Source of the DNA: Candidatus Pseudothioglobus aerophilus
GTDB lineage: Bacteria; Pseudomonadota; Gammaproteobacteria; PS1; Pseudothioglobaceae
Length of the DNA: 39,449 nt
Direction: 5' to 3'
NCBI GenBank assembly: GCA_014384565.1
Contig: JACNFO010000034.1
Location: 34,852-74,300 of the forward strand
Program-made: the position numbers and the translations under genes
Notes under the pieces: generated by a model
Told to the model about the DNA's origin: nothing
What the model saw: the letters and a program-made list of their open reading frames with translations, nothing else
Database searches by the model: none
Shown here: positions 28,347-32,987 of the stretch, piece by piece
Numbering within the stretch: position 1 is the first letter of the stretch
Layout: every line of letters begins with the position of its first letter

Positions 28347-29378
28347 TTAATGATGGTTTAGTAAATCAAGTGAATGAATAATTTTTTTAACTGGAGCAGG
28401 AACGCCAAGAGCGATGCTGTTTATTTTATGGTAATTATCAGCTGACCCTGGGGAGTTTACAATAATCGGATTAATCCAAAGAGTGTAATGACTAAATGAA
28501 TGTTTGAATCTAGTCAGTGATTCGACAATTTTTGCCTTAGGGTTGTGGTTAATAATTGTCTCTTCTATTTCTGCTTCATTTTCTGAGCACTCAGCAAAGC
28601 TCCATAGCCCACCCCAGATGCCTTCGCTTGGTCTTTTTTTAAGGTGAATTTCACCTTTTTCATTTTTATAAATTAAGAATACAATATTTCGTTCGGGTTT
28701 TATTTTTTTAGGCTTTTTATTTGGATAGGTGTCCTGTTGATTGTGAATAAAGGCACCACAATTCTTAGATATAGGGCAGCTTTGACAGTTTGGATTTCTT
28801 GGGGTGCAAACAGTAGCCCCAACATCCATTATTGCTTGTGTGTATTCTGCATTTTGTTTTTCAGGAGTATGAAGCTCAGCAAGTCGCCATAATTCATTCA
28901 TAACACTGCTCGAGCTATAATGACCTTCTACTCTATGATACCTTGCCAAGACCCGTTTAACATTGCCATCAAGGATTGCATGTGGCTGGTTGAACGTAAG
29001 AGATAAAATAGCTCCAGCAGTTGACTTGCCAACCCCAGGAAGCGCTATAACTTCTGAATAGGTTTTGGGAAAAATACCTCCGTAAAGAGATAAGGTAATT
29101 TGTGCAGTTTTATGTAAATTACGAGCTCGACTATAGTAGCCAAGGCCAGCCCATGCGGCCAAAACATCATCCTCGCTTGCAGTAGCGAGCGAAGTTATGT
29201 CTGGAAATTTTTTAATGAAGTTGTTGAAATAATCAATAACAGTTTTAACTTGAGTTTGTTGCAACATAACCTCAGATAGCCATACGTGATATCCATTTGG
29301 AGGGCTAGATTGCCAAGGAAGGTTTTTTCTGCCATGCTTTATAAACCAACTTAAGAGGTCACTCGTTAACTCCGTCAC
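28347..29378 (-). CDS. mutY: A/G-specific adenine DNA glycosylase
   Basis: MutY removes adenine mispaired with 8-oxoguanine. The 343-residue product has the catalytic Glu in SEVMLQQTQV (about 36-45), the helix-hairpin-helix ALPGVGKSTAGAI, the catalytic Asp in AILDGNVKRVLARY, and a complete 4Fe-4S loop (CTPRNPNCQSCPISKNC). The C-terminal third has a NUDIX-like fold that recognises 8-oxoguanine, with the RPSEGIWGGLWSF segment. The start overlaps the metA stop by 4 bases (ATGA), so the two are translationally coupled. It is a normal, full-length repair enzyme. Confidence 0.97.
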   Translation of the reverse strand: MTELTSDLLSWFIKHGRKNLPWQSSPPNGYHVWLSEVMLQQTQVKTVIDYFNNFIKKFPDITSLATASEDDVLAAWAGLGYYSRARNLHKTAQITLSLYGGIFPKTYSEVIALPGVGKSTAGAILSLTFNQPHAILDGNVKRVLARYHRVEGHYSSSSVMNELWRLAELHTPEKQNAEYTQAIMDVGATVCTPRNPNCQSCPISKNCGAFIHNQQDTYPNKKPKKIKPERNIVFLIYKNEKGEIHLKKRPSEGIWGGLWSFAECSENEAEIEETIINHNPKAKIVESLTRFKHSFSHYTLWINPIIVNSPGSADNYHKINSIALGVPAPVKKIIHSLDLLNHH

Positions 29379-30433
29379 TTCTCTAGGTTTAGCGGATTAT
29401 TTGGGTCAATAGTCTGCATAAAAGGCTTTCTAATGTTTTCATTAGTTACCTGATAAACACAGCCAATCCAGTTGTTAATAACAGCACTAGCACTATCATG
29501 CCAGGTGTTATCTAGGGTTTTTGTAAGAAGCTTTTCCGGAAAGTCGTTAATAGTCGCCGTTTTATTTATGAGCCTAGCGCGATACTCTGTCAAAATAGCG
29601 CGACTTTGTAGTGACAAATAATTGCTTGGAAATGGCGGGTAGTCTGAGCTTCTTTTTTCGAGGTAAAGCAAAACTTCTCTCTTATATTCCTTTAAAAGAC
29701 TGACGGAGTCATACTCAGGATGCCCTTGAAAGAAGACAATTCTAAAAAGATCAGGACTAACAGCAAGGTGAACACCAATAGGACTTTTAGCTAAAACTAC
29801 AGCCTTTGCCTCTTCAAATTGCGACTCAGTGACCTCATTAAATCGTGAGTGTGGTATGTCAAAGCGTGTGTTAACGCCCTTAACAAGAGGATGTGTTCTA
29901 TCAATTACCTGATGAGGAAATACACCCCAATGTTTTTTTCCAACGGCCTTTCTTTTCTGGCCATACTTAAACTCTAAAACAGCATGGGTTGCAAGGCAAG
30001 AGCATAAGGTCGAGGTTACGTTTTCATAAGACCAGTCAACTACCTCTCTCAGCTGTTCATAAAATGGAGCGAGCTGAAGGTCTGGATCAGTCACATTGGC
30101 GCCCGTAATAATTAGCGCATCAAGTCCTTGAAGTTTAATTTCTTCAAAGGTTTTATAGTGCTCTTTAATGTGCGCTGTCGCATGTTTTCCTCTTTTGATG
30201 CTTGAAAGTGAAAAAGGGTGGACATAAAACTGAGCAATTTGATTTGAATGGCCTACCAATCGAAAAAATTGCCTCTCTGTTGCTTCAAGCGCAGAATCGG
30301 GCATCATATTTAATAACCCAATATGAAGCTCTCTAATGGTTTGATGTTGGGCTCTCTCAACAGAAAGAATTGTTTCGCCTTGTTTTGCAAGACGTTCAAA
30401 TGAAGGTAGTTTAGAGTGTGCTATTAGAGGCAT
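29375..30433 (-). CDS. metA: Homoserine O-acyltransferase (MetA family)
   Basis: MetA activates homoserine with succinyl-CoA (or acetyl-CoA) as the first committed step of methionine synthesis. The 352-residue product has the HTS family sequence: LLNMMPDSALEATERQFFRL, here about residues 40-60, the ITGANVT strand, the nucleophile Cys in STLCSCLATHA, and FFQGHPEYD with the catalytic His/Glu region. It is about 40 residues longer than E. coli MetA, the extra length lying at the N- and C-termini. Whether it uses succinyl- or acetyl-CoA cannot be read safely from the sequence. It follows the P-loop gene by one base and precedes mutY with a 4-base overlap. Confidence 0.94.
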   Translation of the reverse strand: MPLIAHSKLPSFERLAKQGETILSVERAQHQTIRELHIGLLNMMPDSALEATERQFFRLVGHSNQIAQFYVHPFSLSSIKRGKHATAHIKEHYKTFEEIKLQGLDALIITGANVTDPDLQLAPFYEQLREVVDWSYENVTSTLCSCLATHAVLEFKYGQKRKAVGKKHWGVFPHQVIDRTHPLVKGVNTRFDIPHSRFNEVTESQFEEAKAVVLAKSPIGVHLAVSPDLFRIVFFQGHPEYDSVSLLKEYKREVLLYLEKRSSDYPPFPSNYLSLQSRAILTEYRARLINKTATINDFPEKLLTKTLDNTWHDSASAVINNWIGCVYQVTNENIRKPFMQTIDPNNPLNLEK

Positions 30434-30434
30434 G

Positions 30435-31283
30435 TTATTTAAGCGCGCTAGAGATTAAATTTAAAACGTCCTTTGCAGAGTTGCACTTATGAAGCGCATC
30501 ACTTTCAATTGTGCAGCCATATTTATCCGCAAGTGCGCTGTATTTTTTAAGCCTATCTGCAACTAGTTTTGGAAACACCCAGGTAACAAATGCATTTGGG
30601 TTAATTTGAGCTGCGTAAGCTAAACTATTTTCTTTCAAGTAGGAGTGGAGAGCTCCCTCAAAAAACTTTGGGTTATAGTACATTGGCTTTGGCTGGCTTT
30701 TGGCTCTATCAATAAGCAATCTCTCATTTTCCTTGCTTGTTTTAATATAAATAATTAGCGTTTTCTCTGACAGAAGTTGATAAAGTTTTTTGTCTTCTAG
30801 CTCGCATAGACTTCCCCCAGCATCATTAATAAAATGGGCATAACCGTCTTTTAAAGACTGATTAATAAAATGAGGAACCTCATACATTGTCTTTTTTTCT
30901 GCTTCCAAGAAAAGACTTTGGCGATGAATAAACTCCTCAACAGGAAGACCACCTTCTTCAGGATTGCCAACCTTTCCAAGGAACGCAGAAATTGGCTCTA
31001 AGTTATCAAAAGTAACTTGACTATTAATACTTATAGAGTTATTTTCTAGAAGTGGCTTAAGCCATGAATCATTTTTCATTTTATTAGCTACATTATTAAT
31101 GATGTCCTCTTTAAGATGAGTCGCTCCAATTCTATAATCTCCAGAAAAATGGTACCATCCACCTTCTTCGCCAACAAGTTTAGCAAGATGAGTCTTACCT
31201 ACGCCAGACATGCCAAGAAGGGTTAATCGCTTATTTTTTTGATTTATAAATTGTTTGGCAGAATTTATCATATTGACTTTCAT
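30435..31283 (-). CDS. Uncharacterised P-loop NTPase
   Basis: I do not recognise a characterised function. The 282-residue product has a clear Walker A motif, GMSGVGKT (24-31), after a short strand (RLTLLG). GDYRIG (48-53) follows, a conserved-looking segment at the position where small-molecule kinases bind substrate. Other notable segments are a long helical middle, the HFINDAGGSLCEL stretch (a possible Walker B or catalytic Asp), the strand LIIYIKT, and KPMYYNPKFF. I recall similar unnamed 'ATPase' proteins in marine Alpha- and Gammaproteobacteria; this is memory, not a search. The fold looks like a P-loop kinase, not AAA+. It is tightly packed (7-base gap from DUF2797, one base to metA), implying shared expression. 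The start could be residue 5 instead. Confidence 0.75.
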   Translation of the reverse strand: MKVNMINSAKQFINQKNKRLTLLGMSGVGKTHLAKLVGEEGGWYHFSGDYRIGATHLKEDIINNVANKMKNDSWLKPLLENNSISINSQVTFDNLEPISAFLGKVGNPEEGGLPVEEFIHRQSLFLEAEKKTMYEVPHFINQSLKDGYAHFINDAGGSLCELEDKKLYQLLSEKTLIIYIKTSKENERLLIDRAKSQPKPMYYNPKFFEGALHSYLKENSLAYAAQINPNAFVTWVFPKLVADRLKKYSALADKYGCTIESDALHKCNSAKDVLNLISSALK

Positions 31284-31290
31284 TAGTCCA

Positions 31291-32091
31291 TTAGCTACTG
31301 ATTGTAAGGTGATATGAGCTAAATTTTCTTATATTAAGCACACCAGTATTCAACAGCAAATATTGTCCTTTTATGCCCTCTAGAACACCTGAGATGATAG
31401 GCGTTTTATCAAAGTTTAAAGACACAACCTTTGCAGGATATTTTAGCACAGGGTAGCTAATATTTACCTCATCATCGCTGAGGACTGAAGCCTCAGTTTC
31501 TTTTACCGTAGCTGCAATTTCACCAAGTAATGTCTCTTTTAGGGAGGTAAGATCTGATAGCTCCACTTCATTTTTCAGCATATTTCGCCAGTTTGTTTTG
31601 TCGGCCACAAATTGTTTTAATGCAACCTCAATCTTCCCAGAGTCTAGACGTGACTTTGCCTCAATTATAGGCAGCGCTGAAACTGCCCCTTGTTCAATCC
31701 AGCGGCTATAAAGCCTTTTTTTATTGGTGATTCCAACCTTCGGCTTAGATGTATTTGCAAGATAAATAATGGTTGGTTGGAAACAGTAGTTAAGGCCCCA
31801 TTGCGGCTCCCTGCAGGTGCCCTTAGAATAGTGACAAGTCTCAGGCCTCATGATGCATAAGTCGCATCTAGCTAAAACCTGGGTGCATGGAAAGCAATAG
31901 CCCCCAGACCAGCTTTTTTTTGTCCTCATTCCACAATTAGCACAAAGTATTACGTCATTATATTTGAGCTCAATATGCTTTCCTACAACAGCGTTCATGT
32001 CAATTAGATCCTCGCCAATAGGAAGGCTGTATTTTGCACTGCCTCCTTCAAGAGAGGTATTCATCATTTTTATGTGGCCACTTAACTGCAT
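31291..32091 (-). CDS. DUF2797 family protein with a cysteine-rich N-terminal region
   Basis: Function is unknown; the sequence fits DUF2797. The 266-residue product has eight cysteines in its first third: Cys50, 53, 66, 69, 76, 79, 86 and 93, in three CxxC pairs plus two singles near His87. This suggests two zinc sites or an iron-sulfur cluster. It then has IIYLAN (108-113), KVGIT (118-122) and RWIEQGA, with the spacing of a GIY-YIG-like nuclease core (Y, then KxGIT, then an Arg helix), though the usual catalytic residues are not clearly complete. It overlaps the end of purC by 10 bases and precedes the P-loop gene by 7 bases. A nucleic-acid role is inferred only. Confidence 0.75.
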   Translation of the reverse strand: MQLSGHIKMMNTSLEGGSAKYSLPIGEDLIDMNAVVGKHIELKYNDVILCANCGMRTKKSWSGGYCFPCTQVLARCDLCIMRPETCHYSKGTCREPQWGLNYCFQPTIIYLANTSKPKVGITNKKRLYSRWIEQGAVSALPIIEAKSRLDSGKIEVALKQFVADKTNWRNMLKNEVELSDLTSLKETLLGEIAATVKETEASVLSDDEVNISYPVLKYPAKVVSLNFDKTPIISGVLEGIKGQYLLLNTGVLNIRKFSSYHLTISS

Positions 32092-32987
32092 AGTATCACT
32101 TGTATGTCCCTATATTTTTCAGCAGTTTTATTCATAATTGACCCTGGAATTATCGGAGCAGGAGGGGCTTTATCCCAGTCAAGCGTTTCAAGATAGTCCC
32201 TGATAATTTGCTTATCAAAGCTTTTGGGGCTTTTCCCTGAAGCATAGTCAGGCAAAGACCAGAATCTCGACGAGTCTGGGGTTAAAATTTCATCCATTAG
32301 GGTCAGCTTATTTTCAGAGTCTAGGCCAAATTCAAATTTTGTGTCAGCAATAATAATGCTTCGAGATAGCGCGTGTTTTTCAGCAAAATTATAAAGAGCA
32401 AGGCTTATTTTTTTGATTTGCTCTGCAATATCTGCACCCACTAGCGAAGCAACTTCTTTAAAAGATATATTGGCATCATGCTCACCTGCTGCAGCTTTTG
32501 AAGAAGGAGTAAAAATAGGGTTTTTAAGTTTTTCAGCAAGCACCATATTAGGAGGGAGGTCTATTCCACAAACAGATCCAGACCCTAAGTATTCTTTCCA
32601 GCCAGAGCCAATTAAGTAGCCCCTTACAACAGCTTCAATAGGCAGTGGTTTGAGTTTTTTTACAACTATCGCCCTACCTTCAAGCGCTTCAGCCTCATCG
32701 CTTGACAACACTTCTTCAAGCCCAATATTAGTTAAGTGGTTTTGAACAATATGCTCAGTTTTGCCAAACCAATAGTTTGCTATTGATGTAAGAACCTTCC
32801 CTTTTTCTGGAATTGGCTGGTCAAAAACAACATCAAAGGCTGAAAGTCTATCGGTTGTAACTATGAGCATGTTGTTTTTGTCAATATCAAAAATATCCCT
32901 CACCTTGCCACGATGAAGAAGAGGTAGGGATAGCTTTGTTTGCAAACTGGAATGCATAAGGACTATAAAACGAACTAAAGTATTCAT
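32082..32987 (-). CDS. purC: SAICAR synthetase
   Basis: PurC joins aspartate to CAIR in purine synthesis with ATP. The product is the long type (about 290-300 residues) similar to yeast Ade1: LLHRGKVRDIFDID, LIVTTDRLSAFDVVF, EAVVRGYLIGSGWKEYLGSG and the C-terminal DKQIIRDYLETLDWDKAPPAP, here about residues 256-276. The first ATG gives 301 residues, starting MNTLVRFIVLMHSS. A second ATG eleven codons in, MHSSLQTKL (start 32957), fits homologs better because the first ten residues are hydrophobic and unlike the family; neither has a clear Shine-Dalgarno site. It heads a compact minus-strand run ending with ribF. Confidence 0.95.
   Translation of the reverse strand: MNTLVRFIVLMHSSLQTKLSLPLLHRGKVRDIFDIDKNNMLIVTTDRLSAFDVVFDQPIPEKGKVLTSIANYWFGKTEHIVQNHLTNIGLEEVLSSDEAEALEGRAIVVKKLKPLPIEAVVRGYLIGSGWKEYLGSGSVCGIDLPPNMVLAEKLKNPIFTPSSKAAAGEHDANISFKEVASLVGADIAEQIKKISLALYNFAEKHALSRSIIIADTKFEFGLDSENKLTLMDEILTPDSSRFWSLPDYASGKSPKSFDKQIIRDYLETLDWDKAPPAPIIPGSIMNKTAEKYRDIQVILCS

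Follow-up and report, generated by a model that had tools for sequence, protein, structure and literature searches.

A candidate homoserine kinase family with a predicted shikimate-kinase-like fold encoded beside metA

The window analyzed here is a stretch of 39,449 nucleotides from the genome G000, whose closest named relatives are gammaproteobacteria of the SUP05/Thioglobus group. At positions 30435-31283 on the minus strand it carries a real open reading frame of 282 amino acids, with an ATG start and all 282 codons open. Close relatives begin at Met5, and this comparison suggests that the first four codons are possibly untranslated. The genes on the minus strand are arranged in the order purC, DUF2797, P-loop gene, metA and mutY. 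The DUF2797 gene is separated from the P-loop gene by 7 bp and the P-loop gene from metA by 1 bp, and mutY overlaps the end of metA. Both direct neighbors were confirmed, DUF2797 by PF10977 with 300.7 bits and MetA/HTS with 277.6 bits (500 bits for NF003776). The earlier note on this DNA had described the gene as wedged between DUF2797 and metA with gaps of 1-7 bases, which agrees with the coordinates. It had also pointed out a Walker A motif at residues 24-31, GDYRIG at residues 48-53 and HFINDAGGSLCEL, all of which are present in the translation, the last one at residues 150-162. The features are as follows.

30435..31283, minus strand: P-loop kinase gene, candidate homoserine kinase of 282 amino acids (open reading frame, orthologues, model pLDDT 92.5, predicted shikimate-kinase-like fold)
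31191..31214, minus strand: Walker A GMSGVGKT, residues 24-31, including K30 and T31 (S26, G27, G29, K30 and T31 invariant in 68 sequences)
31125..31142, minus strand: GDYRIG, residues 48-53 (D49 and R51 invariant; D49 may correspond by spacing to Asp34 of shikimate kinase)
30810..30827, minus strand: NDAGGS, residues 153-158, opposite ATGGG of shikimate kinase in a low-probability profile alignment (D154, G157 and S158 invariant)
30552..30554, minus strand: R244, invariant in the 68-sequence alignment and opposite the RxPLY arginine of shikimate kinase in a low-probability profile alignment
29375..30433, minus strand: metA, homoserine O-succinyltransferase, the conserved partner (NF003776, 500 bits; adjacent in 79 of 79 testable loci and in 32 of 33 genomes)
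31291..32091, minus strand: DUF2797 gene, a neighbor in the window's own group only (PF10977, 300.7 bits; nearby in 11 loci)

Of 95 relatives, 59 carry an orthologue that is free of internal stops. Wider sampling revealed such orthologues in 134 of 370 genomes of the window's class (Gammaproteobacteria), in 15 of 199 from across the phylum, and in 117 of 120 from an alphaproteobacterial family termed f201, which was sampled with one genome per genus; when only good genomes of that family are counted, the figure is 107 of 108. As a rule, there is a single copy per genome. The gene is far from chance, because the intact orthologues are 34-96% identical across two proteobacterial classes and share 28 invariant columns among 68 aligned family sequences. 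The family f201 probably represents the Rhodobacteraceae/Paracoccaceae, since plasmid matches in Paracoccus and Pseudorhodobacter have 58% identity to an f201 protein, and its high count among good genomes suggests that the gene is also present in Phaeobacter inhibens and Dinoroseobacter shibae. In a Paracoccus ferrooxidans record the gene is annotated as 'ATPase' and abuts homoserine O-succinyltransferase, and in Methylococcus capsulatus Texas the orthologue (L143:10001-10822) lies beside metA.

No Pfam or NCBIfam model scored above its cut-off for the window protein or for the 25 family members profiled, and searches of PHROGs and PDB sequences yielded weak P-loop matches only. The matches to AAA, IstB, STAND and NB-ARC proteins cover the Walker A motif alone and stay below the cut-off, and these identities were ruled out given the kinase fold. 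A match of the C-terminal part to PDB 4z7e (E 6e-4) spans a short stretch without functional sense and was taken as chance. In a literature search that mostly lay outside subscription journals, the function of the family was assigned nowhere.

The AlphaFold2 model built from alignment A1 has a mean pLDDT of 92.5 and a pTM of 0.88. Foldseek gave adenylate, shikimate and uridylate kinases as the best matches. Shikimate kinases, as whole proteins or as domains, take 29 of ranks 1-30 in the VIA-align comparison, with Z scores of 10.8-13.0, and the other one is the designed protein 4loa; thymidylate kinases come next with a Z score of 10.4. The core of the window protein is predicted to adopt the shikimate-kinase-like fold of P-loop small-molecule kinases, with a large helical insert. 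The motif GMSGVGKT conforms to the Walker A pattern GxxGxGK[ST], and its core is invariant in the 68 sequences. The earlier note had taken the product for a kinase-like P-loop protein without known function and the best candidate for something undescribed. This description holds, with no Pfam or NCBIfam model above cut-off and shikimate kinases in 29 of the 30 top structural rows, and the profile and structure searches gave no clear match to a characterized kinase or transporter ATPase family.

Similar to shikimate kinase (AroK/AroL, PF01202), the window protein has the P-loop kinase core and the Walker A motif, and the following Asp, the GG motif and the RxPxY arginine may be in matching places. 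The helical insert, which separates DYRIG from AGGS, makes it about 110 residues longer. Comparison of the family profile with that of AroK from the same genomes aligned NDAGGS with ATGGG, R...PKP with R..D..RPLL, and R244...Y248 with RxPLY, at a probability of only 17-19% and a P value of about 0.0014. The arginine of the RxPLY motif binds the substrate carboxylate in shikimate kinase. Judged from the spacing after the Walker lysine, D49 may be the counterpart of Asp34 of shikimate kinase. PF01202 itself matched 2 of 25 members weakly, with a best E value of 0.017 and under the gathering score. The P-loop protein was rejected as AroK itself, as a true AroK is encoded separately in 28 of 28 genomes. 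A few P-loop genomes encode extra PF01202 proteins besides AroK (L195 in G498, L196 in G573, and G005:C1:1349958-1350305).

A relative of shikimate kinase, DvMF_0971 of Desulfovibrio, is a homoserine kinase that rescues E. coli thrB, which provides a precedent for homoserine phosphorylation in the shikimate-kinase-type fold family (PMC5764234). The NCBIfam model of this enzyme, NF040667 (homoserine kinase, 163 positions), is the best weak match in 21 of 25 members. However, its score on the window protein is 21.4 bits, far under the cut-off of 197, and residues 20-76, the P-loop half alone, are matched. The match is suggestive at most as a pointer to homoserine kinase. We know of no metA link for DvMF_0971.

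In the P-loop family, metA is found directly downstream in 79 of 79 testable loci. Among 80 named loci, clustering recovered a co-directional metA downstream of the gene in 71, and tblastn added eight of the remaining nine; the 80th locus was left out, as its contig ends 62 bp past the P-loop gene. The spacing is often 1-20 bp or a short overlap. Of 33 whole genomes that carry the P-loop gene, 32 have metA next to it; the exception is G515, with the two genes on different contigs. The G515 orthologue apart from metA (L154:8282-9184) is alphaproteobacterial and belongs to family f208. The other neighbors of the window are of narrower range. Within the window's group, most of 11 loci (L069-L079, L142; window 31291-32091 and 32082-32987) have purC and DUF2797 close to the P-loop gene, and DUF2797, purC and mutY were rejected as functional partners because they are confined to this group. 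Of the 'purine-methionine-repair operon' proposed earlier, the metA link is thus general, but purC and DUF2797 stand near the gene in just these 11 own-group loci, leaving the purine and repair genes outside the conserved unit. In eight loci of the wider group (L072, L074-L079, L142), alaC, encoding alanine transaminase, lies directly upstream and the order is alaC - P-loop - metA; in other gammaproteobacteria inspected (L211, L212, L213), alaC heads alaC-hom-thrC.

The constant pairing with metA, often so tightly spaced, together with the 'ATPase' label on the one annotated record, would also suit a chaperone-like or adaptor NTPase that serves MetA itself, by regulating, assembling or protecting it. 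We consider this very improbable, as the fold is that of a small-molecule kinase with conserved residues resembling a substrate site, and the gene is found with two very different MetA subfamilies and once, in G515, apart from metA. Such a role would also leave the exclusion of thrB unexplained. The two MetA subfamilies bear on the substrate as well. MetA is succinyl-type in the window (NF003776, 500 bits) and in Methylococcus (523 bits), both against a cut-off of 358, and acetyl-type in the f201 genome G599 (NF047918, 462.8 against a cut-off of 460.5). Therefore, homoserine, and not the acylated product, is common to both pairs. A substrate cannot be read from the fold alone, and the gene that constantly accompanies the family is metA, which belongs to methionine synthesis, rather than hom-thrC. 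A small-molecule kinase of the same fold might instead use a different methionine-branch metabolite, such as O-acylhomoserine, homocysteine or a compound of the SAM cycle, with homoserine phosphorylated by another enzyme. We regard this as unlikely: the acyl-product varies between the linked MetA types, the exclusion with thrB would have no explanation, and the homoserine kinase gap would stay in all lineages.

This exclusion was analyzed with the thrB models TIGR00191 (GHMP type) and TIGR00938 (thrB_alt). A set of 52 genomes was assembled from P-loop carriers and non-carriers, and thrC scores over the cut-off in 51 of them. The GHMP-type thrB is over its cut-off in none of the 33 genomes with the P-loop gene and thrB_alt in one of them (G279), resulting in a pathway gap, with thrC present and known thrB absent, in 32 of 33; one or other thrB type is found in 15 of the 19 genomes without the P-loop gene. 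Throughout the class, 11 of 134 genomes that carry the P-loop gene have thrB over the cut-off, compared with 129 of the 236 that lack it (p of about 1e-20 in a Fisher test that ignores phylogeny), which leaves 123 of 134 carriers without thrB. The distribution is near-exclusive. Both genes occur together in 11 genomes over the cut-off, or in 15 at E <= 1e-20, and at this looser threshold such genomes are spread over eleven families. In eight families, P-loop-only genomes are found alongside thrB-only ones. Neither the P-loop gene nor a known thrB is found in 96-107 of the 370 genomes. These approximately 100 genomes may be auxotrophs, incomplete assemblies or carriers of another homoserine kinase, and one of them, G089, is also without thrC. 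The window's genome itself has a hom-thrC pair without thrB. Neither TIGR00191 nor TIGR00938 was listed for the window protein at E <= 10, yet the same reaction is proposed for it as for the two ThrB types, and its distribution is largely complementary to theirs. The folds of GHMP ThrB and thrB_alt are unrelated to that of the window protein.

Gaps at this step have been published for several lineages in which the P-loop gene is present or probably present. In 2008, thrB was reported missing in the symbionts of vesicomyid clams (PMC2642828), which are relatives of the window's organism. Neither thrB nor thrH was identified in Methylococcus capsulatus Bath in 2004, and Ward et al. proposed a phosphoserine phosphatase as a stand-in (PMC517821); the M. 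capsulatus flux model of 2024 includes a reaction HSK_GAPFILLING for homoserine kinase (PMC11594979). For Phaeobacter inhibens, fitness data named no homoserine kinase candidate in 2018 (PMC5764234), and in 2020 ThrB appeared among the novel gaps of P. inhibens and Dinoroseobacter shibae (PMC7311316), which was repeated in 2024 (PMC10809761).

The stand-in of Ward et al. favors the alternative that a different protein is the homoserine kinase, namely ThrH (phosphoserine:homoserine phosphotransferase) or a phosphoglycerate-mutase-like gene adjacent to thrC, and that the P-loop protein has another role. Several P-loop gammaproteobacteria indeed have a gene with weak TIGR02535/apgM similarity between thrC and recJ. 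However, M. capsulatus Bath was reported to lack thrH (PMC517821), and a mutase-like neighbor of thrC is missing from the window's genome, from its relatives L217 and L218, and from the f201 genomes L219 and L220. TIGR02535 (BT2402 type), which has also been proposed as a ThrB substitute but is phosphoglycerate-mutase-like, is over the cut-off in 0 of 80 genomes, nearly all of them P-loop carriers, and was rejected as the missing kinase of these genomes; BT2402 also failed to rescue E. coli thrB (PMC7311316). We consider this alternative improbable. The thrC-recJ protein is 315-343 amino acids long, with weak apgM/TIGR02535/PhosphMutase similarity (L208:4482-5513, L209:3917-4909, L211:5472-6419), and is a minor rival.

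We propose, at a probability of about three in four, that the P-loop family is an ATP-dependent, non-orthologous homoserine kinase paired with metA. The metA linkage, thrC without thrB, the predicted kinase fold, the Desulfovibrio precedent, the published gaps, the hom-thrC pair without thrB in the window's genome and the alaC position in its group support this assignment. Homoserine is the likely substrate, given that metA is linked to the gene and thrB is absent, and the pairing with metA would be accounted for by both enzymes acting on homoserine. The P-loop protein would convert ATP and L-homoserine to O-phospho-L-homoserine and ADP, and would be unrelated by descent to both the GHMP-type ThrB and the aminoglycoside-phosphotransferase-like ThrB. 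In the active site, K30 and T31 may hold ATP-Mg, D49 may contact the hydroxyl group of the substrate, R244 (with R51 and R121) may hold the carboxylate, and R193 and K199 may form the LID. ThrC would turn the O-phosphohomoserine into threonine. By co-encoding with metA, the two competitors for homoserine would be made together, MetA leading to methionine and the kinase to threonine. The earlier suggestion that the protein may phosphorylate a metabolite is supported by its predicted small-molecule kinase fold, with shikimate kinases in 29 of the 30 top rows, and a substrate is now put forward in addition.

Several observations count against homoserine kinase. Eleven genomes have both genes and about 100 have neither. 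Some gammaproteobacteria have the phosphoglycerate-mutase-like gene next to thrC. The fitness data of P. inhibens (PMC5764234) should have shown a threonine auxotroph, unless insertions in the gene were absent or polar. The profile similarity to AroK is weak, and the NF040667 score lies far under its cut-off.

Taken together, it is likely that the P-loop proteins form a new homoserine kinase family with a helically enlarged shikimate-kinase-like fold, which would serve threonine synthesis in about one third of the sampled gammaproteobacterial genomes and in nearly all of a Rhodobacteraceae-type family, closing the gaps reported in 2004, 2008, 2018 and 2020. If so, the homoserine kinase step would be filled in SUP05 bacteria, methane-eating bacteria and roseobacters, and it would be the second case of a shikimate kinase fold turned to homoserine. 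Predicted auxotrophies of abundant marine groups would then become prototrophies, and their metabolic models would be corrected.
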